Below the pieces are notes generated by a model. It saw only the letters and a list, made by a program, of their open reading frames with translations, was not told the origin of the DNA and searched no databases. This document shows, piece after piece, positions 1 through 15,733 of a stretch of 24,890 nt of DNA; positions within the stretch are counted from its first letter, which is position 1; every line of letters starts with the position of its first letter. A program made the position numbers and the translations under genes. The DNA is taken from IMG/VR virus record IMGVR_UViG_3300030406_000469, positions 1 through 24,890 of that record. The stretch is one strand, 5' to 3'. This DNA comes from a virus.

Positions 1-133
1 TAGAAGAAAGTTAGACCAAAAAGGTTATGACGTTTACTATTTTATAGGGATATTACGTAATGAAGGAAAAAGATACCAAGATAAAAGAGATAAAGAAAAA
101 GACAGACTCGAACAACTACCCCCAACACAATGA
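1..133 (+). CDS. C-terminal end of an upstream gene, partial, function unknown
   Basis: The second reading frame is open from the left edge to a TGA at 131-133 and would encode the last 43 residues of a protein entering from outside the window. The visible part contains a GYDVYYFIGILRN stretch and then a strongly charged Lys/Arg/Glu/Asp tail ending LEQLPPTQ. I do not recognise it. It overlaps the longest form of the helicase gene by 74 bases, so either this tail or the first 33 helicase codons may be non-coding. Aromatic and aliphatic residues ahead of the charged tail make real coding plausible. It would belong to the plus-strand replication module. Confidence 0.5.
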   Translation, partial: RRKLDQKGYDVYYFIGILRNEGKRYQDKRDKEKDRLEQLPPTQ

Positions 134-1481
134 AAGATTTAATCAAGAAACTACTAAAATGTTTAGCGGTATTTCTGAAAGAGAAGTTATTGGTTGTATA
201 CTACAAGATGATTCGATTATACCTAAGATATTAAAGTTCATACCTACGTCTCAAGTATTTTATCATAACGACCACGAGATTATTTGGAAAAGTATTTATC
301 ACTTATATAAGACGAATAAAAAAATAGATTTACCTACAGTTTGTAATCATCTCGCAGCTAAAGGTTACAAGATGACTTTTTATCTCACTGGAATACATAT
401 TGTGAGCACCGCAAATGTATCTAGTCACGCAAAAACAATTTATGATTTATACATAAGACGTAAGTTGTTTGATTCTATATTAAAATTTGAAAAAAGATTA
501 CGTAATGAATCTACTTATAAAGATATATCTACAGATATAAGTTATTTATCTAAGATTTCAGAAAAATTTACTGGAGTTGTATCAGTAGATGATAAGAATA
601 TTGCGTCTCTAACTGATGATGTTGAGCAACAAATATATAAGAAAACAAACTTAGTACAGACTGGATTAGCTAAGATAGATAAAGCTATTGTTGGTATGAC
701 CAAAGGAGAAATATCTATTATAGCAGGTAGACCAGGTAATGGTAAGAGCACCTTGGCTTTGAACATTGTAAAAAATATGGTACTTGACGGTAAAAAAGTT
801 ATGTTAATATCTCGTGAAATGCCTAGTGTAGAGATTGTAAAGAAGCTTATTGCTATGCACACTAACGTAAAGAATAAAGAAATGCGTGGTAATGCTCATC
901 TACATAAGGAGGAGATACAAAAAGGTTTAGATTTTATACGAAAACATTACAAATCGCTTTATTTATTTGATAATTTAAGAACTCTAGATGATGCTCTTAA
1001 TGAAGCAAAAAAGATACAACCCGATATAATTATCGATGACCACATAGGCTTTATAGAGTTTCCTCATTATGACAAACAAGATGTAAGACATCGTATTGCG
1101 GAGATAACACGTAGATATAAATGGCTTGCTAAAGATATTGATTGTGCGGTGCTACTCGTATCACAATTAAATAGAAACATCGAGCATAGAGTAGACAAGA
1201 TTCCACGACTCAGCGACCTTGCTGAGTCTGGAAATCTAGAACAAGATGCCGAGATAGTTGTCTTTTGTTACTACCCTTATGTATATGAATATGATAATTC
1301 TGAGCACGGTGAATATGGTACACAGATTATTGTTGCAAAAAATAGATATGGAACTACTTGTAAATTTGATATGGGTTACGACGGAGACAGTGCTATGATA
1401 TTAGATTCTCCAGCAGAAGCTAAAGCTCACAGGGAAGACAGGGTGCTCACGAGCACCGAGCTCGCAGAAGAATTATTCTAG
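60..1481 (+). CDS. dnaB: DnaB-type replicative DNA helicase
   Basis: Replicative helicase that would unwind DNA at the phage fork as a ring hexamer. The N-terminal DnaB domain starts near residue 38 (ISEREVIGCIL). The RecA-like core has Walker A GRPGNGKST (223-231), Walker B PDIIIDDH (321-328), the sensor stretch LLVSQLNR (365-372), the DnaB signature LSDLAESGNLEQDAEIV (384-400) and AKNRYGT (426-432). At 473 residues it has the usual family length. ATG 60 has an upstream AGGGA, but the first 33 residues are lysine-rich and outside the conserved domain. ATG 159 (Met34) is an alternative that would avoid overlap with the upstream gene, though it lacks a clear ribosome site. Only plus-strand module in the window; its stop shares CTAG with the stop of the opposing gene. 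Confidence 0.96.
   Translation: MKEKDTKIKEIKKKTDSNNYPQHNERFNQETTKMFSGISEREVIGCILQDDSIIPKILKFIPTSQVFYHNDHEIIWKSIYHLYKTNKKIDLPTVCNHLAAKGYKMTFYLTGIHIVSTANVSSHAKTIYDLYIRRKLFDSILKFEKRLRNESTYKDISTDISYLSKISEKFTGVVSVDDKNIASLTDDVEQQIYKKTNLVQTGLAKIDKAIVGMTKGEISIIAGRPGNGKSTLALNIVKNMVLDGKKVMLISREMPSVEIVKKLIAMHTNVKNKEMRGNAHLHKEEIQKGLDFIRKHYKSLYLFDNLRTLDDALNEAKKIQPDIIIDDHIGFIEFPHYDKQDVRHRIAEITRRYKWLAKDIDCAVLLVSQLNRNIEHRVDKIPRLSDLAESGNLEQDAEIVVFCYYPYVYEYDNSEHGEYGTQIIVAKNRYGTTCKFDMGYDGDSAMILDSPAEAKAHREDRVLTSTELAEELF
1442..1457. repeat. Perfect inverted repeat just before the convergent gene ends
   Basis: GGTGCTC (1442-1448) and GAGCACC (1451-1457) are separated by two bases. They can fold as a six-pair stem with a four-base loop in either transcript. 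The repeat lies inside the last codons of the helicase gene, some 20 bases before the shared CTAG stop site. No T-run follows on either strand, so it is not a standard intrinsic terminator. It may slow or stabilise the ends of two converging transcripts, or it may simply be two copies of the enriched GAGCAC word. Confidence 0.5.
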
Positions 1482-4400
1482 AGGTCTCTCCAATATTGCA
1501 TTTCTTTTCTAAACTGTTGTTCATCTTGTCTAGATAGTTGTCTAGCTAGTCCCATAACTTGACCTCTACGTTGTCTATAAAAAGAATTTAGTTGTTCATA
1601 TCTCATCAAGAACTCTTTATTATCACGAGATAACTTACTATACCAGTCATCATAAGGACTGAACTCTCTATTACCTCTTTCTTTACTTAGTTTTAATGGG
1701 TCTAATTGGTCAACGTATTCTGTAACGTCATCAAAAGCTTGACGATATGCTCTTATTGGAGACATAGCTCTATTGTTTGCAAGTTGTAATTGATGTGCTC
1801 GAGATACTACTGCTGCACGAAAAGCATTAGCAAATAATTGTGGAGGTGCATCACTATAAAAAGACTTCTTTAAATATTGATAATGAATATTCTTTTCATA
1901 TCCAGCACCTTTAGCTGGTATCTTAAAACCTTGTTTTACACCGTGTATAGACTGATAGTTTCTTTGATTTTGTGTAATCTTTTCATACTCACTTTGTAAT
2001 GATTGTGTTCTAGGAGTAACGATATTATAAATACTACTTGTTAGTGCTGTAATTTTAGATGCTTCTTCTATAAAAGCATATCTTTCTGCTTCAGGGTCAT
2101 TAGATATATTGTCCTCATTAACCATATCTGCAACCTCTTTGTAAACTTGTTTACCAACTAAAAAAGGTAACCTAGCTAAAATATATCCTTGTCTTGCTAC
2201 TGGAAATGTATCTACAAAATTATTTCTACCTTGAGTATCTGAACGTAAAGGTTGTATAAAGTCATTTATAATACCTATCGACCCCATAAACTCACCGTAA
2301 GCTAAGTAGTCCCAAACTTTTTCAGGTGTTGACTTCCAATAATCTCTTTCTTGATTATAAGCCCAATGATAATACTCAGCAATAGCTGCACCGCCTAGAG
2401 CACTTGTAGCTATGTATCTTAACATAGGTGCTATGTCTCCTTCTCTTGCTGGTCTAACAACGTTATTGTAAACATTGTCTGTAACAATGGTAGCAATACG
2501 AGTAAATAGTGTAAAAGGTTTTACCATATCATTACTAAATAATCTTGGTAACATAGCAACATCTGTAATACCTTGTGTGATAGCTTGACCTCTAACCATA
2601 ATTCTACTACGCATTAAGTCTGTAAACTCTCCACTATCTACGGCTTTAGCATAGTCATCTCCCATAGATACCGTTTCACGTAAAAATCTTGCTGCTTTAG
2701 TTTTAGCTTGAGCACTTGATTTAGGGTTACGTAATATTTTTAACGCATTTTCTGCACTTAAATCAAAAGCAGCTATAGCAATCAAACGATTTCTTTGTTC
2801 TACTAATGTCATACCAGTTGTTATAGCTCTTTTAAATTTAGAATAAGCACCAGTGCCTTCATAGTTAAATGCTGTATCAAGTAACTTCATACCACTTTGA
2901 CCTACTGCTAATTTATCATAGTCTACTAAATAAGTTTTTCTAAAATCACTACCTTGCATAGTTCTAGCAAAAGCTTTACTCCATTGTACTAAACCTACTG
3001 TAGATATAGTTTGTACTTGTCCTAGTATAAAGTTTTTAAGAGGAGATATAACACCACTCAATCCAAAAGCTGCACTAGTTCCTACAAGTTCTCTCGTCAC
3101 ATCTAAACCCACACCTCTAGCTTCTGTTTTTACTATCTTAGCTAAATCATCTTCAAATAATTTAATAAGTTGAGATGCACTTACCTCTCCTTTTTCTGAT
3201 ACTTGTAATGCTATTTCATTTATTAGTGAGTTGATACCGTCAGTATACTCTTTCTTTTTACTACTTGTAGCACTTCCAAATTTATATATTCCGTCCCCAA
3301 AATGTTTAGTAAGTGTCATTATGTTTGATATTCTACCACCATATCTATCAATACTATTAATATAATTATAATCATAAGCATCAATACGTTTGGCAATCTT
3401 TTTGCCACCAATCAAGTCTCCTACTTTTTTATTATAGTCATCAGCAATACTAGGTATAAATCTATTGTTTTCATCTAAAAAATATACAGGGTCTAATTGT
3501 ATACGTCTAGAATATTGAGCACCATAGATACCATTTTTAGTTGTATTGTTTGCAAATCTTTTATATAAAACTAATAATTCTTCTTCAGTTGCTCTTGGGT
3601 TGTCTCTTTTTAAACGTCTGAGCACCGCTGTCATTAATGAATTAGATTTGTTCATAGCATCTAATAATTCAAAATTAACAGTCAAAGGCATAAAGTTTTT
3701 AACTTCTTGTATCATACGTTTTTCAGGTCTACCATTTTTATAATAGGTTTCTTTTACAAATAACTTATTACCATTTTCATCTTTACCTAAGTTTTGTGCA
3801 ACCTTAACAATTTTTTTCATAGTTTTTTTGTGAGCTTCTACCATAGGTTGAAACCTTTTCAAATAATTAGCATCATATCCAGCTAATAAATGTTTAAAAT
3901 TAGGGTCAATTAAACCAACCATAACTTTATCAAAGTCTTTTAACATATCTTTGGCTAAACCTTGAGGTGCATTTTTTAGTAGTGTATCTTGTGCTCTACG
4001 CATAGTATATATATAACCAGAAAAAATTTGTTGGTCGAGCACCTTGTTTACTAATTTTTCTGATATTTTTTTAAATACTGTAGCACCAGTTTTTTTATAC
4101 AAAAACTCATACGTTCTATACATAGGCATAAGTATACCGTTAGTAGCTGCACTTAATTCAACTCTATTTAAATCTCCTAAATGGTCATCAATAACTTTAA
4201 TACCAGTCTTTACATCTGCGTCTGCTAAACCAGTAAGAACTGCTTGATATGTTTTAGCTTGTTCTGCTGATAATCCTTTAGTCGAACGTGTATTAAATAA
4301 TAGTTCTTTTAAATCTCTATGTACACCTTGACCGTTTTTATTTCTAAATCCAGAATCTACATCTGCATTTATAACTTGTTGATGTAATCTTCTGAGCTCA

Positions 4401-6481
4401 TCATCAGTTACTCTACCTCTAGTAGAGGCACTTTGTCCTCTAATAAATTCAACATCTCTTGCTCCTAAAATCTTTTTGGGTGTCTTAGTTTTTCTAGTAA
4501 CACTACCATAAGCTATTTGATTTCCTACTGCAATAACGTTTCCGTTCTGTAATGTTACAGAAAATATATCATTACCTTTAAATTTATCACCGTTGGTAGC
4601 ACCATAGATACCATTACCAGTACCACTTTTTCTTTGTGGTTTACCTTTACTACCACGTTTTGGAAGTTCTACAACATTACCAGAAGCAGTACCACCGCCG
4701 CCGAGCACCTTATGTTTTTTAGTAATCATACGTTTGCCCTGCTCCTCTGCTGCACCAGTAACTGTACTACCTGCAATCTTAGAGTGTAAAACTACTTCTT
4801 CTAATTCTATGCCATTTTTCTTTTTACGTACAAGCTCGAGCACCCCTTTGTGTGTCATAACTCTATCGTGACCTGTTAACTGACCAACTTGTATAGCATC
4901 AGATTCTTTCATATTCTTTATAATAAAAGTATTTTGATAACCATTATCTGCTTGTCTTTGCACTCGCATAATATCTTTTTCTTTATATCCACGTGCAAGT
5001 AAATCTCTTACTAAAGATTCTGTAGGACTTTCACCAGGTAAAACTTTTAAATTTTGTTTATGTGATGCTTTATCTACAGTAACAGCTACCCATTTACCTG
5101 ACTCCCAAAATCTTTTAGCATCTTTATCTGTTTTAAAAAATGATTTTACCACACCATTTACATCAACATTTTGCATAATTCTGGTTACATCTTCAGGTGT
5201 GCTAGTATATGTATTAACAAACTCATCTAAAGTTCTTTCTACGTTTTTACTGTTCTTTCTAACATTACCGTTTTTATCTAATACATCATAGATTACTACT
5301 GGTTTATCTACTCTACCTTTTGTTGTACCTTTACCAAACTGTTTTATACGTGCAGTAAATCCACTCTTACTAGTTAAGTTTAATCCTTCAAAAAACGAAG
5401 GAACATTTTCTATTTCTTTTACTGCCTTTCTAACAGCAGCTTCTGTAATATCATTAACTAATGATTCAGGTAAATCAGGTGCTTCTTGTCTGAGCACCTT
5501 AGCTACATTATTTTTTGTACTTTTAAATTCTGTACCTCTAGATAAATTACCTAGAGCACCTACCATTAAACCATTTATCAATCTTTCTTGTGGGTTTAAA
5601 TCAGCACCATTTAGTCCACTAGATAATGCACCAGCTGAAAACATATATCCAGTTCCTTTGGTTAAGCTTTTAGATATTTTAAATCCAGCTAAATTAAAAT
5701 CATCAACATTTGTTGCTTTTAAAAAACCTCCTTTAGCAAATAGAGCACCACCAACTATATCACCAGGTAATGCAAGTATTTGTTTTTGTATACTAAAAGC
5801 TTCATCAGATTGTATTTGAGTTGATGCTGTAGATACTTGACCATATAATCCAAAAAGCTTTGCTTCTTTGACCATACGTCCTCTTTTAAGAAATGTTAAT
5901 GCTTGATTAGGGTCTTTAGCTGCTAAGTTAAAAAATTTATCTGCAGCTGATGATTTTGCTACTCTACTACCAAATAAATTATAAGTCTGTCCAAAACCAA
6001 CAGAGCCTATAGCTTCTATTTTTTGTCCAGCTTGATATGCTCTACCTGCTTCTTGAATTTTTCTTAGACCTTTTGTTGTTTGAGCACCTTTTAGTGACAA
6101 CGCTGCCAAAGTGCTCGAGCCGCCAGTCATAGCACTAAGTATACCGTGAACACCAAACATACCTAAGACATTACCTGCTGCTCTTGCTGCCATAAGAGAG
6201 CCGCTTTCTAACTCCATAAATGGTATATCTGGTTGTATAAATAGAGCACCTGCTCCTAAACCTTCTTGAAATGCTGATGTTATAGTAGGTGGTACACGTA
6301 GTTGTTCTTTTGCTTCTGGTACACGTACTGGTCTGAGCACCGCAGATATTGTATTATTATAGTCTACTTCTCGTTGATTAGAAAGAGACCCAAAGTCTGA
6401 TAGAGTGATGCCTTGATTTTGAGATTGCTCACCGCTAACATTAAAGTCGTCTAACGAAATGTGTCCAGGTGTGTGTGGCAT
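1478..6481 (-). CDS. Giant internal virion / DNA-ejection protein candidate (1667 aa)
   Basis: Largest protein of the left part. I recognise no enzyme motif. The N-terminus carries two similar short stretches, ISLDDF (about 8-13) and ITLSDF (about 25-30). An Ala/Gly-rich hydrophobic region follows at about residues 95-130. The middle is long, basic and mixed in character. Towards the C-terminus are further Ala/Gly-rich hydrophobic segments, and it ends in a charged, Gln/Arg-rich helical tail finishing QYWRDL. Size, the alternation of soluble and membrane-seeking stretches, and position at the end of the virion operon after a transglycosylase-bearing protein resemble the large ejection proteins of short-tailed phages (T7 gp16 type) or large polyvalent phage proteins. 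This is inference; no catalytic site was found. It starts at ATG 6481, sharing TAATG with the gene before it. Confidence 0.9.
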   Translation of the reverse strand: MPHTPGHISLDDFNVSGEQSQNQGITLSDFGSLSNQREVDYNNTISAVLRPVRVPEAKEQLRVPPTITSAFQEGLGAGALFIQPDIPFMELESGSLMAARAAGNVLGMFGVHGILSAMTGGSSTLAALSLKGAQTTKGLRKIQEAGRAYQAGQKIEAIGSVGFGQTYNLFGSRVAKSSAADKFFNLAAKDPNQALTFLKRGRMVKEAKLFGLYGQVSTASTQIQSDEAFSIQKQILALPGDIVGGALFAKGGFLKATNVDDFNLAGFKISKSLTKGTGYMFSAGALSSGLNGADLNPQERLINGLMVGALGNLSRGTEFKSTKNNVAKVLRQEAPDLPESLVNDITEAAVRKAVKEIENVPSFFEGLNLTSKSGFTARIKQFGKGTTKGRVDKPVVIYDVLDKNGNVRKNSKNVERTLDEFVNTYTSTPEDVTRIMQNVDVNGVVKSFFKTDKDAKRFWESGKWVAVTVDKASHKQNLKVLPGESPTESLVRDLLARGYKEKDIMRVQRQADNGYQNTFIIKNMKESDAIQVGQLTGHDRVMTHKGVLELVRKKKNGIELEEVVLHSKIAGSTVTGAAEEQGKRMITKKHKVLGGGGTASGNVVELPKRGSKGKPQRKSGTGNGIYGATNGDKFKGNDIFSVTLQNGNVIAVGNQIAYGSVTRKTKTPKKILGARDVEFIRGQSASTRGRVTDDELRRLHQQVINADVDSGFRNKNGQGVHRDLKELLFNTRSTKGLSAEQAKTYQAVLTGLADADVKTGIKVIDDHLGDLNRVELSAATNGILMPMYRTYEFLYKKTGATVFKKISEKLVNKVLDQQIFSGYIYTMRRAQDTLLKNAPQGLAKDMLKDFDKVMVGLIDPNFKHLLAGYDANYLKRFQPMVEAHKKTMKKIVKVAQNLGKDENGNKLFVKETYYKNGRPEKRMIQEVKNFMPLTVNFELLDAMNKSNSLMTAVLRRLKRDNPRATEEELLVLYKRFANNTTKNGIYGAQYSRRIQLDPVYFLDENNRFIPSIADDYNKKVGDLIGGKKIAKRIDAYDYNYINSIDRYGGRISNIMTLTKHFGDGIYKFGSATSSKKKEYTDGINSLINEIALQVSEKGEVSASQLIKLFEDDLAKIVKTEARGVGLDVTRELVGTSAAFGLSGVISPLKNFILGQVQTISTVGLVQWSKAFARTMQGSDFRKTYLVDYDKLAVGQSGMKLLDTAFNYEGTGAYSKFKRAITTGMTLVEQRNRLIAIAAFDLSAENALKILRNPKSSAQAKTKAARFLRETVSMGDDYAKAVDSGEFTDLMRSRIMVRGQAITQGITDVAMLPRLFSNDMVKPFTLFTRIATIVTDNVYNNVVRPAREGDIAPMLRYIATSALGGAAIAEYYHWAYNQERDYWKSTPEKVWDYLAYGEFMGSIGIINDFIQPLRSDTQGRNNFVDTFPVARQGYILARLPFLVGKQVYKEVADMVNEDNISNDPEAERYAFIEEASKITALTSSIYNIVTPRTQSLQSEYEKITQNQRNYQSIHGVKQGFKIPAKGAGYEKNIHYQYLKKSFYSDAPPQLFANAFRAAVVSRAHQLQLANNRAMSPIRAYRQAFDDVTEYVDQLDPLKLSKERGNREFSPYDDWYSKLSRDNKEFLMRYEQLNSFYRQRRGQVMGLARQLSRQDEQQFRKEMQYWRDL

Positions 6482-7671
6482 TATGAACTACCTAGTATTA
6501 CGTCTTGCCCTGGTATTTGACCATATATAGTTATGTCATCTATAGTTAAAGAGTCTGCTGGGTTTACACTTCCGTCCCTTCTAAAACCTGCAAACCTATA
6601 TGTTCCAGTAGCTTTATCTTGATAAATTATGCCGTCTTCTCCTTTAAAATTAGTTCTCTTATATCTTGATGCGAAACCACCCTGTTCAACTAAAGATTTT
6701 ACTTGGTCATCATTGTACTGTGTAGGGTCTTGGTCTTTTTTTACAATCATATTTAAAATATTTTGTCTCATTACGTCAGAAGCAACACTACTTAAATACT
6801 GTGGATTACCTGCTGAGTCATAAGATATAGGTATTTTCCTACCAGTTTGTGGGTCAGTCTTATCTAATAGATAACTATTATCAATATCATCTAAACCTTT
6901 TAATATTTGAGATAAATTTTTAGCCATATCTGCATCTATTTCTGCTTGTGATATATCTTTTTCTCCAGCTCTTTTAATTGTTTGGTCAAATATTTTTTGT
7001 GCAGCTTCTGCTGTAGGGGCTTGTGCTAATTGTTGCATAAGTATTTCTGTGTTAGCACCAGATAAACCAAAAGCTCTACCAAATACATCTGCATTATCTA
7101 CTAAATAATTTTTCATTTCACTATCTAATGTAAGTTGTAAAGTGTTTTTATATTTTTCACTTAGTGCTTTTACTTGTTGATTATTAGTATTCATACCCGC
7201 TAAACCTTGATTAATAATCATTAATTGTTTTTTCTTGTCATCTAGGTCTGGCATATTTTCAAGTTCCATAAACATATTATTAATATTACCTAATGCAGCT
7301 TTATCATCTTCATATATTTGTTGCATATTTTGTACAGTAGTTCTACCTACATCAGACTTAACATTTAACTGAGAAAAATCAAAATCTATATCACCACGAG
7401 CACTGTTTTTTAATAAAGATTCAAAACCATTTATAATCAAAGTGTCTTCTTCTATCTGTAATTTTCTCTCTTGCAAAGCTTGCTGGTCATTATATCTTTC
7501 ATCATTTTTTCTTTCTCTTTCTCTAGTTATTTGGTAGTTCATAGCATCTTGAGCACCTTGATTTAGAGATGAAAAAGCTATTCTTGCAAATTGATTGAAG
7601 TCTATGTCGCTATCTTTTGCTGCTGCTTGTGAAACTAAAGCACTAAAATTATCTATTGTTTTAAAACTCAT
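6481..7671 (-). CDS. Probable internal virion protein, unknown function (396 aa)
   Basis: Not recognised. The N-terminal third is polar and probably coiled (an Arg/Glu/Gln-rich stretch around residues 48-75). The middle holds Gln/Asn/Met-rich helical segments, and the last 60 residues look globular with Gly/Tyr/Phe. There is no signal peptide or membrane helix. It lies between the transglycosylase-bearing protein and the 1667-residue protein and is coupled to the latter through TAATG at 6481. This is the place where short-tailed phages keep internal core proteins, so that role is the best guess. Start at ATG 7671; a GAGGACGG lies about ten bases upstream. Confidence 0.88.
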   Translation of the reverse strand: MSFKTIDNFSALVSQAAAKDSDIDFNQFARIAFSSLNQGAQDAMNYQITRERERKNDERYNDQQALQERKLQIEEDTLIINGFESLLKNSARGDIDFDFSQLNVKSDVGRTTVQNMQQIYEDDKAALGNINNMFMELENMPDLDDKKKQLMIINQGLAGMNTNNQQVKALSEKYKNTLQLTLDSEMKNYLVDNADVFGRAFGLSGANTEILMQQLAQAPTAEAAQKIFDQTIKRAGEKDISQAEIDADMAKNLSQILKGLDDIDNSYLLDKTDPQTGRKIPISYDSAGNPQYLSSVASDVMRQNILNMIVKKDQDPTQYNDDQVKSLVEQGGFASRYKRTNFKGEDGIIYQDKATGTYRFAGFRRDGSVNPADSLTIDDITIYGQIPGQDVILGSS

Positions 7672-7673
7672 TT

Positions 7674-8483
7674 TTAACCGTCCTCGTAATCATCTTGGTC
7701 TTGTTCATTATCGTTGTCTTCATTGTTGGTTGGGTCGTAGTCAAACAAATCTGCTAGGTCTGCAAGTCTTAACATATCACTTCTTTGATTTGCTTCTAAT
7801 CCTGCTAAGTATCTTTGAGCACCTGTAATTCTATTAATAATATCTTCACTAATATTATACAATCCTCTACTAAAGTTTGATTGTATGCCTTCAAATCTCA
7901 TAGCAGCTTGGTTGCTTATATTACCATAAACGTTTCTACCTAAAGCAAAACCACGGTTTCCTTCCATACCTCTAGCTTGTTCTAAGCTTTGAAATAAACT
8001 ACCTCTTAATCCTTGTTCTGCTTGACTTCTTTGTTCTTCTAACATACCTGTTCTTTCCTGACGCATTAATGAATACATTTCTGATTCTGGGTCTGCAGCT
8101 TCATAGATTTCTGACGGGATTACAGATACAAACTGTGTCAAACCTTCAAGTTCAGAAATATCTACGTCAGGAAAGAAAGATGTTAAAACTTCTAGTGGGT
8201 CTTGTCCAGGTGTGGAGGTTGGTGTTTCATTTCCAGTAGTAGTAGGGTCATCATCAATTATACCCCCATTAGTACCAGTTGCATCGTCATCTCCTATTTG
8301 GTCTGGACCTGTAAAATTATTTGTATTACCATTTATAAAAAAAGAAGGTGCAACACCTCTAGTTTCTTGTACAGGATTACCTGAGCCTAAACCTGTAGCA
8401 TTACCAGGTGCTATTTGGTTTGGATTTAGTTGCTTTAGTAAAGCATCTACATCTGGTGTTCTATATGGGTCAAGCATTGACAT
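7674..8483 (-). CDS. Small virion protein candidate with acidic tail (269 aa)
   Basis: Not recognised. Residues about 20-105 are low-complexity (Gly, Asn, Thr, Pro, Asp) and probably disordered. Residues about 115-245 look helical and Gln/Arg-rich, including LRGSLFQSLEQARGMEGNRG and RYLAGLEANQRSDML. The end is strongly acidic (DNEQDQDDYEDG). The helical region is of the type seen in phage internal or tail-lumen proteins of marine phages, but I cannot assign a family. Its ATG at 8483 overlaps the stop of the preceding gene (TAATG) and is preceded by AGAGGA, a good ribosome site. It precedes the two larger internal-protein candidates and may act with them in the same virion complex. Confidence 0.87.
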   Translation of the reverse strand: MSMLDPYRTPDVDALLKQLNPNQIAPGNATGLGSGNPVQETRGVAPSFFINGNTNNFTGPDQIGDDDATGTNGGIIDDDPTTTGNETPTSTPGQDPLEVLTSFFPDVDISELEGLTQFVSVIPSEIYEAADPESEMYSLMRQERTGMLEEQRSQAEQGLRGSLFQSLEQARGMEGNRGFALGRNVYGNISNQAAMRFEGIQSNFSRGLYNISEDIINRITGAQRYLAGLEANQRSDMLRLADLADLFDYDPTNNEDNDNEQDQDDYEDG

Positions 8484-9907
8484 TAAAATCCTCTTAATAT
8501 TGGTTGTGTTCTTACATTTAATATGTTTTGAAAAGTTTGATAAACTTGGTCTGGTCTTTGGTCTATAGCACTTACAGCATAGTTTCTTCCAACTTCATTT
8601 AAAAATCTTTCATTAATTTGATAAAGACCTAAATCAAATGTTCCGTCATTATTTAACCCAATAGCTAATGGATTGTTACTTGACTCAGCATCTGCTATGT
8701 ATTTTTTAATTTGTTCCCAACTTACAGTATCTTTATCTACTGGACCAGTATATCCAGTAGCATCTTGAAATGCTTTAGTAACTTTATCTTTTGTTGCCCA
8801 CTGGTTTATACCTCTTTTTTCATATAATTCTTTTGCTAATTGTTCATTAATAACTGGGTCTAATGCTTGTTTTTGATTTAATGAATCAGCATCTAATTGT
8901 TCTAATGGTGTGTTAAGTAAAATATTTCTTTTCTTTTTAATTTCATCACTTCTTCTTTGAGGAGCACTAGCTAAAAACTCTCTACCTGCTGCACGTTTTT
9001 CTGCGGCAGTAGCATCAACACCAGGGAACGTATCAACACCAATACCTAACATTTCATTTACAGCATCTAATCCAGCTTGGTCCGCTAATCGTCTTTCTTT
9101 AACTAAACTATAAGGAGCATCGCCTACAACATCTACTCCTTCTATAAAAATAGGATTTACTTTTGTACCAGCTAATCCTTCTCCTTTTAAATCTGTAGCA
9201 TATAATTTATTTTCTGTTTTTGTTGGCTCTAAACCAAAACTTAAATTAACAACATCTCTTAAATAATCTTTATATTTATAATCAATACTACCTGCTTTAC
9301 CTAACTCTCTTAGCTCTCCTAATGTTTTCGCATTATCTCCAGTACCAATTTTTAAGTTATCATATTTTAGTAAAGCTAATCCAGATATAGCATCAATACC
9401 AAAATCTATAACTGCTTGTTGTTTGTTCTGGTCATCTAAAACATCAATAGCATATTCTAAATCATCATAAGCATCTTCTAATTTTTTACCTTCATCTTTA
9501 AAAAAAGTCATACCTTCTCTAAGTTCAGGGTCTATATCTCCTACACTAATATCTCTAAATCCACCAGCTGCTGCTCTACCAGCTGCTCCACCTACTGCTG
9601 GTAGTAATACTTTAGCTGCTTTTGCTAATGCACCACCACCACCTGGTATAGCTAAAGATGCTAATATACCTAGACCAGTACCAAAAAACTTTCCAAGTCC
9701 TCCACGTTTTGCTCTACGACGAGCATCTCTTTGTGCTTTTGCTGCTGCTTCATTAAGTTTTTCTTGACCATATTCTAACTTTTCTTTGTCTTGTAAAGCT
9801 TGAATAGTTCTATCGAATTGTGCTTCTGAACGTGAGGATATAGCTTCGGCTTGTGCTAATCCGTAGTCTAGTTTTGCTGCTTGTGCTGGTGTAAACTTAT
9901 ATGCCAT
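8483..9907 (-). CDS. Virion protein with C-terminal lytic transglycosylase domain (474 aa)
   Basis: The last 80 residues look like a lysozyme-like lytic transglycosylase (SLT) fold: WEQIKKYIADAESSNNP with the likely catalytic Glu at 408, then FDLGLYQINERF (about 424-435), matching the family's ES...NP and GLxQIN pattern, then a weaker NILNVRTQ near the end. It would cut the glycan strands of the cell wall during DNA entry. Residues about 65-115 are Gly/Ala-rich and hydrophobic (GTGLGILASLAIPGGGG), possibly membrane-active. The domain is short and stops soon after the second motif. The C-terminal position and internal-protein neighbours suggest a structural ejection protein rather than a free endolysin. 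Start at ATG 9907 behind AAGGG. Confidence 0.88.
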   Translation of the reverse strand: MAYKFTPAQAAKLDYGLAQAEAISSRSEAQFDRTIQALQDKEKLEYGQEKLNEAAAKAQRDARRRAKRGGLGKFFGTGLGILASLAIPGGGGALAKAAKVLLPAVGGAAGRAAAGGFRDISVGDIDPELREGMTFFKDEGKKLEDAYDDLEYAIDVLDDQNKQQAVIDFGIDAISGLALLKYDNLKIGTGDNAKTLGELRELGKAGSIDYKYKDYLRDVVNLSFGLEPTKTENKLYATDLKGEGLAGTKVNPIFIEGVDVVGDAPYSLVKERRLADQAGLDAVNEMLGIGVDTFPGVDATAAEKRAAGREFLASAPQRRSDEIKKKRNILLNTPLEQLDADSLNQKQALDPVINEQLAKELYEKRGINQWATKDKVTKAFQDATGYTGPVDKDTVSWEQIKKYIADAESSNNPLAIGLNNDGTFDLGLYQINERFLNEVGRNYAVSAIDQRPDQVYQTFQNILNVRTQPILRGF

Positions 9908-9952
9908 AATCCCTTAATAAATATATTAAATATTATATCCTCATTTCTACTA
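9908..9952 (-). promoter_or_regulatory. Small AT-rich gap with a -10-like box; weak promoter candidate
   Basis: One of the few real gaps in the minus-strand operon (45 bases). On the minus strand it carries TATAAT (plus-strand 9932-9937), followed by an A/T-only run and then the AAGGG ribosome site of the transglycosylase gene. No good -35 box stands at 16-18 bases, so the box could be chance in AT-rich DNA. If real, it would drive the ejection-protein genes. Confidence 0.25.
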
Positions 9953-10318
9953 TTATTTTGGTACAATGTTACCACTATCTACTACTGCATCTCCTGTCAC
10001 AGCTTGTGAATCTGTTGTATCTGGTAGTGTAGCAAATAACTTTTTGTCTTCTGCTACTCTTACACCGTCTTTAATTATCTTAATTGCTTTTCTTTGTGGT
10101 CTTTTTACGTCTGAAAATTTAGCAAAGGTTTCTAACTCTCTATGGTCAGCTCTTTTAAATTCCATTTCAAACATCTTACCAAATTCTTTTCGTATTACTT
10201 TTAGTTTACCATTATGGTATTGTAATACTTCTTCACCGTTCTTCATATCTTTGGTGCTCACAGCACCTTTTTTGAGCACCTTACTTGAGCCCGATACATC
10301 TGAAGCTTTAGTTCTCAC
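9953..10318 (-). CDS. Small basic protein, unknown function (121 aa)
   Basis: Not recognised. The first 90 residues are rich in Lys, Arg and Glu and look soluble (EVLQYHNGKLKVIRKEFGKM, then FKRADHRELETFAKFSDVKR). The last 25 residues are polar and probably flexible. No cysteine pair, signal peptide or membrane segment. It uses a GTG start at 10318 that overlaps the TAG stop of the hub gene (TAGTG), so its translation is probably coupled to the hub protein. Position between the hub and the internal virion proteins suggests a structural or assembly accessory role, without direct support. Confidence 0.82.
   Translation of the reverse strand: MRTKASDVSGSSKVLKKGAVSTKDMKNGEEVLQYHNGKLKVIRKEFGKMFEMEFKRADHRELETFAKFSDVKRPQRKAIKIIKDGVRVAEDKKLFATLPDTTDSQAVTGDAVVDSGNIVPK
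10253..10273 (+). terminator. Terminator-like hairpin with T-run, antisense to the small gene
   Basis: On the plus strand GGTGCT (10253-10258), CAC, AGCACC (10262-10267) is followed directly by six T (10268-10273). That is a short stem of six pairs with a three-base loop and U-tract, the layout of an intrinsic terminator. No plus-strand gene reads into it, so it could stop antisense transcription coming from the left, or be chance. The stem is short and the strength is doubtful. Confidence 0.3.
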
Positions 10319-12543
10319 TATCTAACTCCTTTAGTTCTTGCGATTATAGTTATATCTTCTAATTGAAAGTCTGCGTGTGTAGTTCCAACAATCTGTAGTT
10401 GTAATGATTTTTTAAATACTTGATTAGCATCTGTCAATATAAACTCTTGTGTTGTTATAGAAGAAGAATTTAAAAGATTAGACGATACAAACTTATCTGT
10501 AAAACTACTTTCATCATCGAATCTTGCTTTCAACTGTAATGAACTACCATTGTTTTTATATGTTACATACACAGAATAAAACTTTTTATCTACTGAATTT
10601 AAACCTCCAGTATATTCTCTTGTCTGAATATCTACAACTTGAGCACTTGGAGTGTTTACATCAAACTTTAGTAGCTTAGAATCTGTACTACCTGACGATG
10701 CTTCGTCTCCTGATATACAACACAACTCATTATTGAGCACTATAAAGTTGCTAATAGGTCTATCATTAGCATCTACACCTATTTTGAGCACGTTGTTTTC
10801 ATCTATTTTAACAATAGATTTAGTTAGTAAGTCATATAAGTATCCACCGTCAGACATATCACCAGAATCTTTTACAATAATTACTTGGTTTTTCTTAGGA
10901 ATAAACCCTATCAATAGTTTTGATTCGTCTATATCTGCGTCATCATCGTTGTTTCTAGCCCAGGTGCTCTCTTTAATAGCATCAGTTAGTTTTGTAATCC
11001 CGTTTGCAAAAGCAAATAAACCGTGCTGATTAACCCACATCAAACCTAAATCTGTTTTTACTACAGCACCTGGGCTTTGTACTCCTCTATTAACAAACTC
11101 TCCCTCTAAATACCAACCAGCATCTGTGGTTGATGAAATGTTTATTACAAATAATTTATTCTTTTTATATACAAATAATCTATCACGAAACTCTACAAGC
11201 TTTACAATTTCGTCACCGTCATTTGCACCTATATCTATAAAGTATGTTTGTGGAAAAGTATCATACTTTAATGGAGGAGAATACTGTATTCTATCTCCCA
11301 TAACTTTAGTTTTCCCCACGTTATCCACATATCTTACGTTACCTACAAATGCTCTTTGGTTTGCTACAGTAGCAGTCTTATAACCAAATGCTGTATTATA
11401 AAAATCTATTGCGTGCTCACTAGGTGCGTAACCATTTATAGTAGAATATGTTTCTATGTTAGGTTGTTTTACTTCATAAGCTGTAACATTTGCAGTATTT
11501 TTAGCATCATTGGTAACAAGAAAGCCAGAGCCTGAAGAATCAAAAGCATCAAAGTCGTCAAGCAAAGATATTCTTGAGCCTTGTTCTAAATCTACATCTA
11601 ATAACAATACATATTCTTCATCTCCTGCTTCTACATTTCTAAGATATACTCTTACTCCTTGTATAAATTTATTTTGTCCTGATACATCTATCTCACTTTC
11701 TCCTATTGACATTTGAACTACAGGGTATTGTCCTTCTGTTATAGCTTGCATAGTTGTAAAGTTTGTAATTTTAGATTCTTGATTATTATGATATACATAA
11801 GATAATCCAATAGCATAATTACCTGGTTGCCATAAACCGTCAGTACCGTCTGCTTTTAATCCTAATCTAAAAAATTTATCACCGTCTGGGTCAGCACCTG
11901 GAGAAGTTGTGTCTGGTGTAACTGGGTCTTGTTTTTCAAAATCAGATGCAGTTGGTGCTACTAAACCACTATTAAACATTTGCATAGAATCTGCAACATC
12001 TGCACTATAAGCAGTAGCTGATGATTGAGTTCTTGATAATCTAATCAATGAAGTTTTTCTAGCATTAGTAGTTGTACTTGTATCATCTACTACACTTTGA
12101 TTAATACGTAATCCACCGTCTGCATAGTAGTATACAGGTTTAACTCCTGTTCCTGTGCTCACATCTGCACTTTGAAAAGCTATCATAGTAGCACTACCAG
12201 ACGATGAAGCAGAGTCATTTATAAAAACACTACCGTCATCGTCTGTAAATACAATATGTTCCCCCGCTGTTTTACCAGATATAGGAGCTACATCTGATTT
12301 AAATGTAAACAAACCAAAACCAGATTGTATATTTATATCACTATCATTTATAGTTGTACCACCACTACCTTCAGTAAGAGTTGCACCAGCAGCACTAAAA
12401 GTTCCTAAGTTTGATATTTGTCCTACTTCAGCTACATTAACATTTAATGCTTCTGCTAAGTTACCTTCAAGTAAATCCCTTTTAGATACTTTATCAGTAA
12501 AACCTTTATCAAATCTTTCTATTTTTATTGCTGCTTTAGGCAC
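10318..12543 (-). CDS. Tail hub / DNA-stabilisation type protein, beta-propeller-like (741 aa)
   Basis: A long beta-rich protein without membrane segments. The N-terminus (KIERFDKGFTDKVSKRDLLE, then a stretch with GNLAEALNVNV) resembles the opening of phage proteins that close the connector, such as P22 gp10-like stabilisation proteins and T7 gp12-like tail tube proteins. Around residues 440-530 is the repeating pattern typical of these hubs: DGDEIVKLVEFRDRLFVYKK, then FVNRGVQSPGAVV, then LGLMWVNQHGLFAFANG. It would sit between portal and fibres and hold the packaged DNA. GTG start at 12543 behind AAAGGT, overlapping the holin gene by eight bases. The family assignment rests on motif rhythm only. 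Confidence 0.85.
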   Translation of the reverse strand: MPKAAIKIERFDKGFTDKVSKRDLLEGNLAEALNVNVAEVGQISNLGTFSAAGATLTEGSGGTTINDSDINIQSGFGLFTFKSDVAPISGKTAGEHIVFTDDDGSVFINDSASSSGSATMIAFQSADVSTGTGVKPVYYYADGGLRINQSVVDDTSTTTNARKTSLIRLSRTQSSATAYSADVADSMQMFNSGLVAPTASDFEKQDPVTPDTTSPGADPDGDKFFRLGLKADGTDGLWQPGNYAIGLSYVYHNNQESKITNFTTMQAITEGQYPVVQMSIGESEIDVSGQNKFIQGVRVYLRNVEAGDEEYVLLLDVDLEQGSRISLLDDFDAFDSSGSGFLVTNDAKNTANVTAYEVKQPNIETYSTINGYAPSEHAIDFYNTAFGYKTATVANQRAFVGNVRYVDNVGKTKVMGDRIQYSPPLKYDTFPQTYFIDIGANDGDEIVKLVEFRDRLFVYKKNKLFVINISSTTDAGWYLEGEFVNRGVQSPGAVVKTDLGLMWVNQHGLFAFANGITKLTDAIKESTWARNNDDDADIDESKLLIGFIPKKNQVIIVKDSGDMSDGGYLYDLLTKSIVKIDENNVLKIGVDANDRPISNFIVLNNELCCISGDEASSGSTDSKLLKFDVNTPSAQVVDIQTREYTGGLNSVDKKFYSVYVTYKNNGSSLQLKARFDDESSFTDKFVSSNLLNSSSITTQEFILTDANQVFKKSLQLQIVGTTHADFQLEDITIIARTKGVR

Positions 12544-12904
12544 GACCTTTTACCTTCTCATAGCTACGTAAACCCCCAAGCCCGAGCATACCCATTAAGA
12601 CAGTTGTCATTGTGGTCATATCAAACTCAGGTAGTTGTACATTTACTCCTCCTGCAGCAAATGCAAACAATAAAAAAGGTTGCACAACAAAGTGATATGC
12701 AAAAGCTAAACTGAGCACCCAGCCTAAAAAGGGTCTCCAACGAACTAATAGTCCGCCTTGTCCTGCTTCTACTTTATTTACTTCAAGTTGTGCTTTATTA
12801 ATCTCTTGCATTAGCTGAGCTTTTTCTGCTTTGTCTAAAGTAAAATCATCTACTTTATCTACAACTTTTTCTATTAGACTACCTACAACACTTAGTTTAG
12901 GCAT
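12536..12904 (-). CDS. Holin, three-transmembrane gene-transfer-agent type
   Basis: Pore-forming lysis protein of the inner membrane. After an amphipathic, charged N-terminal helix comes the family core WRPFLGWVLSLAFAYHFVVQ, a second hydrophobic stretch (PFLLFAFAAGG), then MTTVLMGMLGLGGLRSYEKV. The WRPxxGW motif and the GxGGxRxYEK ending are hallmarks of the 3TM holin family first described for gene transfer agents. I start it at ATG 12904 (MPKLSVVG). ATG 12913 and a TTG at 12919 are also in frame, and a stop lies directly upstream of the TTG. None has a good ribosome site; the only strong one (GAGGAC, 12935-12940) serves a 12-codon leader frame. No soluble endolysin gene is seen beside it. 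Confidence 0.9.
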   Translation of the reverse strand: MPKLSVVGSLIEKVVDKVDDFTLDKAEKAQLMQEINKAQLEVNKVEAGQGGLLVRWRPFLGWVLSLAFAYHFVVQPFLLFAFAAGGVNVQLPEFDMTTMTTVLMGMLGLGGLRSYEKVKGRA

Positions 12905-12930
12905 AGTCCACATACACAATTACAGTTCAT
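12892..12930 (-). other. Possible 12-codon leader ORF overlapping the holin start
   Basis: An ATG at 12930 stands six bases after GAGG, the best ribosome site of this interval. It opens a 12-residue frame (MNCNCVCGLCLN, four cysteines) that ends at TAA 12892, inside the holin gene. The holin's own ATGs at 12913 and 12904 lie within this frame and lack such a site. The holin could therefore depend on ribosomes loaded by the leader. The cysteines may be accidental, because the frame is fixed partly by the overlapping holin codons. Confidence 0.35.
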
Positions 12931-12940
12931 AATTGTCCTC

Positions 12941-13243
12941 CTACCATTTTACTTTGTTAGCCCAGTAAGCTGCACTCATCTTACCTTTGGCTATGTTTTT
13001 TCTATGTCTTGCTTTAAAACTTTTACGTTTCATTTTAGTTCTTCGAGACTCTCCTGCTTTTGGTTTACCTGCAGTTTTTGCTCCTTGTTGTCCAAAACGT
13101 ATGGTTTTAATCTTATCGCCCTCTTTTGCTACAACTATATGAGACTTCTTAGGGTGATTAGGTGTACGTTTAGGTTTATTAAAACCTGATACACCAGCTC
13201 TTTTTAATCTTGGGTCTCTTTTACTTTTTCTTTTTGCGGGCAT
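12941..13243 (-). CDS. Small highly basic marine-phage protein with KSFKARH / AAYWANKVKW ending (100 aa)
   Basis: A 100-residue, Lys/Arg-rich protein. The last 30 residues are the characteristic part: KSFKARHRKNIAKGKMSAAY followed by WANKVKW. I know this ending as recurrent in ocean phages and related giant-virus proteins, where it is annotated only as a domain of unknown function. The strong positive charge suggests nucleic-acid binding or packing inside the head. It starts at ATG 13243 behind AAGGA and overlaps the end of the preceding basic gene by 23 bases. Confidence 0.88.
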   Translation of the reverse strand: MPAKRKSKRDPRLKRAGVSGFNKPKRTPNHPKKSHIVVAKEGDKIKTIRFGQQGAKTAGKPKAGESRRTKMKRKSFKARHRKNIAKGKMSAAYWANKVKW

Positions 13244-13520
13244 TTGCTTTCCTTATACTTTCTTTACCTTTTTTAAAAATACTAGCTACAGTTCTTTTAC
13301 CCATAACTCTAGCTCTTTGCTCACCTACTGTAAGTATCTGTATTTTTCTTGCAAAAGGTTTTTTAATTCTTTTAACTTTAGCTACTGTAGCTCTTGCGTC
13401 TGCTGGTGTAGCAAACTTTATACTAACTGTATCTCTAGGGTTTTCATCAGTATATAATCTTCTACCACTACCTTTTGGTTTTTTACCAGTTCCGACTTTA
13501 GGGTCTCTTTTTTTAGCCAC
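13221..13520 (-). CDS. Small basic marine-phage protein, MAKKRDPKVGTGKKPKGSGR type (99 aa)
   Basis: The first 40 residues (KKRDPKVGTGKKPKGSGRRL, then YTDENPRDTVSIKF) form a conserved opening I have seen in many marine phage proteins of unknown function. The rest is a basic helical region ending in a Lys/Arg tail (KANARKKKK). The start codon is GTG at 13520, sharing TAGTG with the stop of the tiny gene before it, so translation is probably coupled. No catalytic motif or cysteine pair. A DNA- or RNA-binding structural role is plausible from charge only. Confidence 0.88.
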   Translation of the reverse strand: MAKKRDPKVGTGKKPKGSGRRLYTDENPRDTVSIKFATPADARATVAKVKRIKKPFARKIQILTVGEQRARVMGKRTVASIFKKGKESIRKANARKKKK

Positions 13521-13627
13521 TATCTTTTCTTTTTTTTCTTACTAGCTACAATTTTTTTCTGTAAAAATTTAGGTAAAGTTTTTTGTTTTTTAGTTAAACC
13601 ATTTTTCTTTTTAGTGTGTTTAGGCAT
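13520..13627 (-). CDS. 35-residue Lys-rich micro-protein
   Basis: ATG 13627 to TAG 13520 encodes MPKHTKKKNGLTKKQKTLPK followed by FLQKKIVASKKKKKR. The pattern GLTxKQKxLPKxLQxxI recurs in short marine phage proteins, which argues that this is a true gene despite its size. It is joined by TAATG to the thioredoxin-like gene upstream and by TAGTG to the next basic gene. Function unknown; strongly basic like its two downstream neighbours. Confidence 0.8.
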   Translation of the reverse strand: MPKHTKKKNGLTKKQKTLPKFLQKKIVASKKKKKR

Positions 13628-14010
13628 TATCGTATCTCCTTTTTTATTTTATCAAACACTTCTTTTTCATCAAACCTCATACTGATACCAGGCTCATACC
13701 TCATAACTTCAGTACCTTCTTTTAAAATTATAATAGTAGGAACTACTTTTATTTTCCACTCCTTTTGTACTACAGCACCTATAGTTTTATTACTTAAATC
13801 TATTTCTGCTACATAACAAAGGTCAGCAAGTTTTTCTATTTTTACTCTATTTTTAAAATTCCAAGCTGCATTAACTTGTACTACAGCACACTCTTGTATA
13901 TTTAATGATTGTATTTTCTGAAAGCTATCCAAGTTGACTGATTGTGAGTGCAGCCAAGATAGCGATGAGAAAAGCATTAATACCAAGTATGATATAAATT
14001 TGTTGTTCAT
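13627..14010 (-). CDS. Exported thioredoxin-fold protein lacking the CxxC active site (127 aa)
   Basis: Residues 1-24 form a classical export signal (hydrophobic LVLMLFSSLSWL, then HSQS, a possible cut site). The rest has thioredoxin architecture: a first strand AVVQVNAAW (42-50), a helix NRVKIEKLADL where the active site should be, a strand YVAEIDLS, and VVPTIIILKEGTEVMRYEPG with the family's conserved cis-proline at 91. The residues after Trp50 are NFKN instead of CGPC, so redox catalysis by the usual pair is not possible. Only Cys41 and Cys65 remain, one before the first strand and one after the helix. It would act outside the cytoplasm. Start ATG 14010 behind GAGGT; lies between a membrane/coiled-coil gene and small basic genes. 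Confidence 0.87.
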   Translation of the reverse strand: MNNKFISYLVLMLFSSLSWLHSQSVNLDSFQKIQSLNIQECAVVQVNAAWNFKNRVKIEKLADLCYVAEIDLSNKTIGAVVQKEWKIKVVPTIIILKEGTEVMRYEPGISMRFDEKEVFDKIKKEIR

Positions 14011-14022
14011 CTGTAAACCTCA

Positions 14023-14319
14023 TTATTTGTTATTCATATCAATAAGTGTTTGAGTAATAGCTTTTGTATCTTCTTTAATATCATCTACTTTTTCCTCTAA
14101 CTTATCGACTTTCCCTTCAGTATTTAATATTGAATCACGTATCATTTGGTCTTTTAAATCATACTCCATACGTGAAACTTCTGGCTCAGGCAGTCTTTTA
14201 GCTTCTTCTATATCAGCTTGTAAAGAATACCATAAACCAATTATCATACCTATAGTTACAGCAATACTGACAGCTGTTTCTATAGACAATGTAAATTTAC
14301 TATCTTTACCTATTTCCAT
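14023..14319 (-). CDS. Single-pass membrane protein with coiled coil (98 aa)
   Basis: One membrane helix at about residues 12-31 (ETAVSIAVTIGMIIGLWYSL) is followed by a charged helical region with heptad-like spacing (NTEGKVDKLEEKVDDIKEDT). The topology, a short N-terminus, one helix and an extended coiled coil, fits an inner-membrane spanin subunit or a holin-like accessory. Location near the holin and among the lysis genes supports a lysis role, but no family signature is decisive. Start ATG 14319 behind AGGGG, two bases after the Hint-fibre gene. Confidence 0.85.
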   Translation of the reverse strand: MEIGKDSKFTLSIETAVSIAVTIGMIIGLWYSLQADIEEAKRLPEPEVSRMEYDLKDQMIRDSILNTEGKVDKLEEKVDDIKEDTKAITQTLIDMNNK

Positions 14320-14321
14320 AT

Positions 14322-15425
14322 TTAGTCCCCTATTTCTGAGTGTACTAATACGCCATTTGCGTAAAAGTTTTTATTTTTTGTTAATATAGTGTATGTCCAA
14401 TGTTTCTTTGGAAATCCTTCTAATCTGTGTACTTGTGCATAATACTTACCGTCTAATATTTTTAGTAAATCATTAGGTTGTATAGCAGCTGAATCTAAAT
14501 TATAATTATCTTTAGCTTTATCTGGGTCATCAGATACCATAGTACCGTCTTGTTTATATACTGGGTGGTCTTGTGTAAGTATTAATTCTTTTAGTTCTTC
14601 TCCCTCTGTTTCATCATTAGGGTCTGATAACATAATTTTATACAAGTTATCGTGTAATCTTTTTTCTATTTGTAGTATCTCAACTTCTTCTTCTTGTCCA
14701 GTCTCCCAGTTATAAGACATAATCATATCACCAATATTTAATTCGTGTATGTTTGCAGTGCCTTCTTTTAAATTAACTGGTATGTTTTCATAAATACAAA
14801 AACCAAATTGACCACCAGCAAAATTAATATCTCCTGTAATAGTAGCTCCTACACCATTATTAGTCAGTGTCAATGTATATGCTCCTGTACCGTCTTTATT
14901 AGAAGGCGAGTGTGCCCACCTAGTTCTAATAAATCTTGTACCTGAATTATGACCAGTAAATAAACTATTACTATTAGATGATGATACACTTATAAAACCT
15001 GTACCACTATTACCTGTACCATTAAAACCTGGGTCGCCACTGCTTGATGTAGCCATTGTAAATGTACCAAATGGTCCACCAGTAGTAGATAAAGATAAAC
15101 TTGTTCCACCACTACCATTAGATACAGTCATCTGTGCATCTTTATTAGATTCGTCAGTCTGACCAGGTAATTCTTGTAAGTCTAATCCAGTGTTATCTAC
15201 AACACTCCAAGATGTACCAGCTAAGTCGTGGTCATAACTATAGAACTCAGATATGGCGTGAGGTGCACTACCGTCTGGTCTGTCTGCACTATCATTTTGT
15301 GTGTTAATAGTAGCCACAGTACCGTCAGATAAATCTTCTAATGAAGTATCGCCAGTAGTAGAAGTTCTACCAAACTCAGTATTTATATCACTAAATTTAA
15401 TTTGTCCTGATGCAGTCAAACTCAT
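14322..15425 (-). CDS. Fibre-like virion protein with C-terminal Hint (intein/Hedgehog-type) domain
   Basis: Residues 1-65 (SLTASGQIKFSDINTEFGR, then an ISEFYSYD stretch) match the opening of many marine phage fibre proteins. Residues 70-205 are Gly/Ser/Thr-rich beta sequence. From Cys210 a Hint domain follows: block A CIYENIPVNLKEG with ELNIGDMIMSYN (228-239), block B ELILTQDHPVY with T284 and H287 (TxxH), and the final block TYTILTKNKNFYANGVLVHS (344-363). The penultimate His is kept, but the splice-essential Asn after it is replaced by Ser363, and only EIGD remains beyond. Hence splicing is not expected. Cleavage or transfer at the Gly-Phe/Cys210 junction, as in Hedgehog-type and bacterial intein-like domains, is possible. 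ATGA overlap with the giant fibre gene. Confidence 0.9.
   Translation of the reverse strand: MSLTASGQIKFSDINTEFGRTSTTGDTSLEDLSDGTVATINTQNDSADRPDGSAPHAISEFYSYDHDLAGTSWSVVDNTGLDLQELPGQTDESNKDAQMTVSNGSGGTSLSLSTTGGPFGTFTMATSSSGDPGFNGTGNSGTGFISVSSSNSNSLFTGHNSGTRFIRTRWAHSPSNKDGTGAYTLTLTNNGVGATITGDINFAGGQFGFCIYENIPVNLKEGTANIHELNIGDMIMSYNWETGQEEEVEILQIEKRLHDNLYKIMLSDPNDETEGEELKELILTQDHPVYKQDGTMVSDDPDKAKDNYNLDSAAIQPNDLLKILDGKYYAQVHRLEGFPKKHWTYTILTKNKNFYANGVLVHSEIGD
14334..14798 (-). other. Hint domain coding segment
   Basis: This segment encodes residues 210-364 of the fibre-like protein. It holds the nucleophile Cys, the TxxH motif and the C-terminal NGVLVHS strand. About 150 residues is normal for a Hint domain without a homing endonuclease, and no endonuclease insert is seen. 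Confidence 0.85.
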
Positions 15426-15733
15426 TTTTTAAGTTCCTCTATTTCAGCTTTTAATTCTTGTATTGCATTAATCAACACTGGTACTAACTTAGAATAATCA
15501 ACTGCTTTGAAGTTATCTTTACCTTGTAGTCCTTCATATTCTTTTACTACTTCTGGTATTACTTCTTCCATTTCTTGAGCAATAACTCCAATGTCGTGAC
15601 CTCTTTCTTTACCATTTGCTTTGTCTTTTTTCCAATCAAACTCTACAGCTCTCATTTTCATAACATCATCTAAGCCATAAGGTAAAGCTTCAACATTTTC
15701 TTTTAAGTTTTTATCAGAAGCTGTTGTACTTGA
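15422..15733 (-). other. S74 intramolecular chaperone coding segment
   Basis: Encodes the terminal 103 residues of the giant fibre with the LKENV motif, the GVIAQE motif and the trailing helix typical of the S74 family. In known members this part is removed by self-cleavage after the trimer has folded. Confidence 0.88.

Follow-up and report, generated by a model that had tools for sequence, protein, structure and literature searches.

The window and its word-rich zone

The stretch of DNA analysed here, called the window throughout, is G000, a 24.9-kb virus contig (24,890 nt, IMGVR_UViG_3300030406_000469) from a group of uncultured marine phages, and the element in question is the hexamer GAGCAC, counted together with its complement GTGCTC. 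The left half of the window contains the DnaB-like helicase gene that ends an early gene module and, convergent with it, late genes on the minus strand. The word occurs 38 times in the window, 29 times as GAGCAC on the plus strand and nine times on the minus strand. Thirty-four of these copies lie within 404-12718 (26 plus, 8 minus), and the other four are scattered over the remaining 12 kb. The first-pass annotation of this DNA had described the left-half enrichment, a plus-strand share of three-quarters, frequent extension to GAGCACC and about 17 uses of GTG-CTC or AGC-ACC. Recounting bears these figures out: 76% of the left-half copies are on the plus strand, 21 of the 34 extend to GAGCACC, and GTG-CTC (Val-Leu) or AGC-AC (Ser-Thr) codons are used at about 18 copies. 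The features are listed below, the individual copies being placed by word count.

404..12718, no strand: word-rich zone with 34 GAGCAC/GTGCTC, running on leftward in a longer contig (G001, 10.5-34.3 kb)
60..1481, plus: DnaB-like replicative helicase (PF03796, 1.5e-55), with which the early module ends; 5 sites
1478..6481, minus: 1667-amino-acid late gene, convergent with DnaB, 16 sites; possibly internal-virion-like, from its size and position
10318..12543, minus: 741-amino-acid late protein, 6 sites; relatives occur in word-bearing phages
404..409, plus: word copy
746..751, plus: word copy
1302..1307, plus: word copy
1443..1448, minus: word copy, inverted pair with 1451
1451..1456, plus: word copy
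1795..1800, minus: word copy
2398..2403, plus: word copy
2710..2715, plus: word copy
3517..3522, plus: word copy
3620..3625, plus: word copy
3991..3996, minus: word copy
4037..4042, plus: word copy
4703..4708, plus: word copy
4838..4843, plus: word copy
5492..5497, plus: word copy
5554..5559, plus: word copy
5743..5748, plus: word copy
6082..6087, plus: word copy
6111..6116, minus: word copy
6244..6249, plus: word copy
6335..6340, plus: word copy
7398..7403, plus: word copy
7551..7556, plus: word copy
7817..7822, plus: word copy
8962..8967, plus: word copy
10254..10259, minus: word copy
10274..10279, plus: word copy
10641..10646, plus: word copy
10735..10740, plus: word copy
10786..10791, plus: word copy
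10964..10969, minus: word copy
11413..11418, minus: word copy
12155..12160, minus: word copy
12713..12718, plus: word copy, closing the dense zone

Dinucleotide shuffles of the window (100 in all) gave a mean of 7.25 copies and a maximum of 14, and none reached 38; the chance expectation of about four per window given earlier was a little low, while the excess over chance holds. When the window's own genes were shuffled with protein and codon counts kept (200 shuffles), the 34 left-half copies compared with 5.0 ± 1.9 (maximum 10), and with codon-junction dinucleotides kept as well (200 shuffles) with 8.0 ± 2.2 (maximum 14). The right half carries four copies, with 2.5 and 2.1 expected from the same two types of shuffle. 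Viewed as a share of the sites at which the word is synonymously possible, occupancy is 34/79 (43%) on the left and 4/47 (9%) on the right. The junction-preserving shuffle and the codon-context tests described below were used in place of a shuffle keeping every codon pair, because codon pairs such as GTG-CTC are themselves the signal. The word excess is real and strong and, as far as literature searches show, undescribed; these searches found nothing relevant on the GAGCAC word or the phenomenon.

Selection on the word in related phages

A near-identical longer contig, G001 (IMGVR_UViG_3300037961_005043, 50,937 bp), contains the window from position 21,608. It carries 92 copies of GAGCAC versus seven of the reversed control word, and GAGCAC is its most over-represented hexamer (92 versus 14.2). 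Seventy-six of the 92 copies fall at 10.5-34.3 kb, which corresponds to the plus-strand early module and the distal end of the convergent late operon. The early module encodes a MoxR-like AAA+ ATPase, a VWA-like protein, a PD-(D/E)XK nuclease, an ERF recombinase, SSB-like and resolvase-like proteins and DnaB; it is named early from its gene content and upstream promoter-like sequences, not from expression data. In the terminase, portal, capsid and tail-fibre genes of G001 the word is near background. G001 also has two different major capsid genes (1667-3058 and 46799-48181) and two portal genes (3812-5803 and 48953-50815); two related phages have probably been merged in this contig, as a chimera or through an overlapping join.

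Relatives were gathered by scans with DnaB, the 741-amino-acid protein and terminase. At least eight of them (G2, G3, G4, G5, G13, G14, G15 and G20) have this excess too, and have it in the same modules. A sister group (e.g. G7, G9 and G11), with terminase about 80% identical and the same gene order, is without GAGCAC, and its early module carries the palindromic word CGTTTAAACG instead. Under the strictest shuffle, the pooled early genes of word-bearing phages have 306 copies versus 122.4 ± 5.6 (maximum 135). None of its single-mismatch neighbours shows a comparable enrichment in these genes; GTGCAC, GAGCTC and GAGTAC are depleted, and the flanks of the word lean to pyrimidines (YGAGCACY). 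The word fills 377 of 894 synonymously possible sites (42%) in the early regions of word-bearing phages, compared with 44/451 (10%) in their head and tail genes and 5/178 (3%) in the sister group, and nine control words reach 5-15% in the same early regions.

Codon choice in these regions follows the word. Val-Leu pairs in word-bearing early regions are written GTG-CTC 94 times, GTG-other 24 times, GTH-CTC 12 times and GTH-other 148 times (odds ratio 48, Fisher), and GTG-CTC accounts for 0 of 81 such pairs in the sister group. Gly-Ala pairs followed by C are GGT-GCT in 52 cases, GGA-GCA in seven and mixed in one, whereas before a base other than C the four combinations are spread 53/26/39/31. 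Either GGT-GCT-C or GGA-GCA-C is acceptable and mixtures are not, because both are orientations of the same word.

Conservation among relatives, which the first-pass annotation had named as a check, was also found. Where homologous positions encode the same amino acids, relatives keep 552 of 778 sites, while hexamers matched for GC content predict 268.5, about twice the retention of comparable hexamers, these being pairwise comparisons among related phages that are not independent. In 14 comparisons the same homologous site carries the word in flipped orientation through a synonymous flip. GAGCAC is thus shown to be an exact, lineage-specific, orientation-independent DNA word under selection, using a large part of the synonymous space.

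The coding-strand ratio of GTGCTC to GAGCAC is 37:42 in G3, 45:36 in G5, 22:26 in G13, 29:32 in G14 and 22:22 in G15, with 51:26 in G1, and the summed coding strands of G1, G3, G4, G5, G13, G14 and G15 hold 238 GTGCTC versus 205 GAGCAC. The approximately 1:1 orientation in most relatives speaks against a polar word. The strand bias of the window is local and not a property of the system, and of the "polar functional word" first proposed, only the functional DNA word stands, since its count exceeds the codon-level nulls and relatives keep it at homologous positions; its polarity fails on the balance in relatives and on the synonymous flips. Copies are found in every frame and in either orientation, within genes as well as between them. 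Gaps between copies are Poisson-like (pooled coefficient of variation 1.06) and average about 315 bp in most genomes; this Poisson-like pattern rules out regular spacing or paired sites. Coding and noncoding DNA carry the word at similar density, and its sites are spread evenly along genes, so that operator or promoter placement is ruled out too. A palindromic dimer site, GTGCTCGAGCAC, was likewise rejected, the left flank following it only weakly, and known RNA families gave no match.

Other short words in these genomes also depart from expectation. CATATC occurs 22 times in the window, with eight GATATG, and is retained at 756 of 895 homologous positions in relatives; its occupancy is about 30% in both phage groups, in early and late genes alike. 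The window contains no GATC, GCGC or GGCC, and the early genes of relatives contain no GATC (266 expected) and are depleted in CATG and CAATTG. Together these deficits represent strong restriction-site avoidance.

Early modules, other words and the MoxR/VWA pair

Among relatives with a readable early-module start, the MoxR and VWA genes always occur with GAGCAC, and an SprT-like/B303 set occurs with CGTTTAAACG and without GAGCAC. The CGTTTAAACG group falls within the GAGCAC lineages in the terminase (TerL) tree, and in L052 a GAGCAC-type terminase is joined to a CGTTTAAACG early module; early modules and their words have therefore been exchanged as units. Such exchange with word-free relatives may partly explain the few copies in head and tail genes. 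In sister-group contigs such as G7 (IMGVR_UViG_3300029319_000032, 24-43 kb), CGTTTAAACG has about 20 copies in the early module, often in the arrangement AGAG..CGTTTAAACG..CTCT. Several sister-group copies overlap stop codons or fall between genes, and they may represent an intercistronic hairpin or operator.

More distant phages, fetched through the MoxR-like protein, have words of their own, chosen after inspecting all hexamers: GTTAGC in L156 (50 versus 8.0; 49% occupancy), TAGCAC in G329 and G328 (25% and 23% occupancy) and GCTAGC in G327 (28% occupancy). No close cultured relatives were found. A cultured Roseobacter phage, CRP-810 (OR671924, L170), has CobS/CobT genes and a genome-wide word, CAGACG, with 142 copies versus 51 expected over the 50 kb read and an occupancy of 29%. 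Top hexamer scores are about 5-7 in the other five cultured comparison phages, including Vibrio phage ICP2, versus 12-19 in most GAGCAC-bearing relatives.

The association of these words with the MoxR/VWA (DUF7192) pair is a correlational lead and not a demonstration. The MoxR/VWA region (L010; G001 at about 10.6-13.8 kb) has 43-50% GC within a 35% GC phage, and its third positions in G001 favour C before GA (CGA-rich). The AlphaFold model of the N-terminal helical domain of the MoxR protein is moderate, with a predicted local distance difference test score (pLDDT) of 67, and homology of this domain to the N-termini of other word-bearing phages was not detectable.

Among 296 sampled Bacteroidota genomes, none came near the phage density of the word, and the host phylum has not been identified. 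Of the phage genes sought in bacterial genomes, TerL had no match and DnaB matched at only about 30%, in Gramella. The early promoter and ribosome-binding sequences look sigma-70- and Shine-Dalgarno-like (TTGACA-type promoters and GGAGGT), with a promoter-like count no higher than in shuffles. Such sequences suggest that the host may lie outside the Bacteroidota.

Readings of the word and known systems

We tentatively favour the explanation that GAGCAC is a DNA recognition word which selection has concentrated in the early/recombination module and in the late-operon end next to it. An enzyme or binding complex specific for this DNA sequence would read the word wherever it is present. Each copy would add a small benefit, so that density would count and not any one site, as for uptake sequences or Chi. 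The word might label phage DNA as self for a processing system, be it recombination, protection from nucleolysis or the handling of DNA on entry. The reader might travel with the early module, and the MoxR-like AAA+ and VWA (DUF7192) gene pair is a candidate.

Several observations weigh against this recognition word. Neither its reader nor its host has been identified. The word-bearing relatives are homologous, so their pooled counts are not independent, and exchange of modules, rather than a regional function, might account for the restriction of the word to half the genome. L152, L153, L155 and ICP2 have MoxR/VWA-type gene pairs without a comparable word, the CobS/CobT genes and different word of CRP-810 agree only loosely with the MoxR/VWA idea, and the link to this pair rests on few independent lineages.

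A broader proposal, which we regard as possible but doubtful, is that hexamers differing between lineages (GAGCAC, GTTAGC, TAGCAC and GCTAGC) are self-words driven towards synonymous saturation in the genome's early half, with a DNA machine encoded by the phage as their reader, possibly the MoxR-like AAA+/VWA pair. If true, self-words would constitute a sequence-coded system of self/non-self distinction or DNA handling not previously described, and a phage-encoded reader would mean that a virus has a novel means of marking DNA as its own. Were the reader a host nuclease or methylase, the word would identify that activity in uncultured marine bacteria. An occupancy of about 42% of the synonymous space, in both orientations, is a strong recognition footprint in DNA not known to carry any, and the change of words among related phages offers a comparative handle for finding the reader.

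No known family shares all the defining features that were compared. The word belongs with distributed recognition words, and there is a real chance that it is something categorically new. DNA uptake sequences (DUS) and uptake signal sequences (USS) are likewise dense, dispersed words, kept at many sites and swapped for other words in related lineages, as described for the dialects of Neisseriaceae (PMC3630211), and GAGCAC matches them as a dense, conserved, lineage-specific word. It differs in being shorter and in residing in phage DNA, with no competence machinery or enriched host genome known.

The word could instead be Chi-like, regulating a host RecBCD/AddAB-type nuclease or the phage PD-(D/E)XK exonuclease so that phage ends are recombined and not degraded, which we consider unlikely. 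Like Chi, GAGCAC is a short, exact, over-represented word scattered through genes regardless of frame, and it lies both in and beside a module of recombination genes that include ERF, a PD-(D/E)XK nuclease and a resolvase-like gene. However, Chi acts in one orientation and is spread across host genomes, whereas GAGCAC is balanced in most relatives and known only from a phage lineage, mostly in half its genome. The word came near phage density in 0 of the 296 Bacteroidota genomes, a sample drawn with the host phylum not identified, and the sister group has the orthologous exonuclease but is without the word.

Similarly improbable is that GAGCAC is an N6-methyladenine (m6A) target of a host or phage BREX/PglX- or MmeI-like methyltransferase, with methylated copies marking self. 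BREX and MmeI sites are 6-bp non-palindromic words with adenine at position 5 (PMC11341690). GAGCAC, TAGCAC and GCTAAC fit this format, and the exactness of the word would suit an enzyme, but about half of random hexamers fit it in one orientation. Phages carrying unmethylated BREX motifs are blocked, and a burden of this kind predicts avoidance, not saturation; GAGCAC is enriched in the same phages that avoid GATC, GCGC and GGCC almost completely. We know of no precedent for the enrichment of a BREX motif in a phage. Furthermore, the part of the early proteins that was scanned with Pfam and PHROGs contains no methyltransferase domain.

An origin without selected function, through biased gene conversion, bias in repair or mutation, or hitchhiking in an early module that spread as a unit, has a low probability in our view. 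The word does move with the early module, as the discordance of the TerL tree and L052 indicate. Vsr-like repair conversion is ruled out, because no single neighbour is depleted as it would leave; the depleted GTGCAC, GAGCTC and GAGTAC are palindromes or contain GTAC, and palindromes (GATC, CATG, AATT and GTAC) are generally under-represented. Also against this explanation stand the high positional retention and the joint favouring of both strands and of synonymous double changes (GGT-GCT to GGA-GCA).

It is very unlikely that the copies are stoperator-like, that is, dispersed repressor or terminator sites controlling transcription genome-wide. The stoperators of Cluster A mycobacteriophages are dispersed, mostly off promoters, and differ between related phages (PMC6550527), and their repressor reads an asymmetric sequence (PMC9283540). 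Nevertheless, stoperators, most of which point the same way as transcription (PMC6550527), are 13 bp long with about 30 copies in each genome, whereas GAGCAC has a 6-bp core, up to 92 copies and an orientation near 1:1. GAGCAC shows no gene-edge preference and its variants are not enriched; the genes read, in which no dedicated search was made, included no recognisable repressor or integrase.

An artefact of codon or codon-pair usage, to which Gly-Ala GGT-GCT codons do contribute some sites, is scarcely credible, being contradicted by the dependence of codon choice on the base after the pair, the equal density in noncoding DNA and the shortfall of shuffles keeping codon counts and junction dinucleotides.

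Outside the word itself, the window has other features of interest. A 367-amino-acid late protein (14322-15425, minus) has a C-terminal stretch that appears Hint-like (hedgehog/intein) by eye, with no Pfam match, and a secreted, thioredoxin-fold-like protein (13627-14010, minus; weak Pfam match) is conserved in both phage groups. The hexamer CCGTCT has 18 plus-strand copies (6632-20211, mostly 11.8-20.2 kb) and no minus-strand copy; it reads AGACGG on the coding strand, mostly of late genes, and probably reflects Asp-Gly codons.

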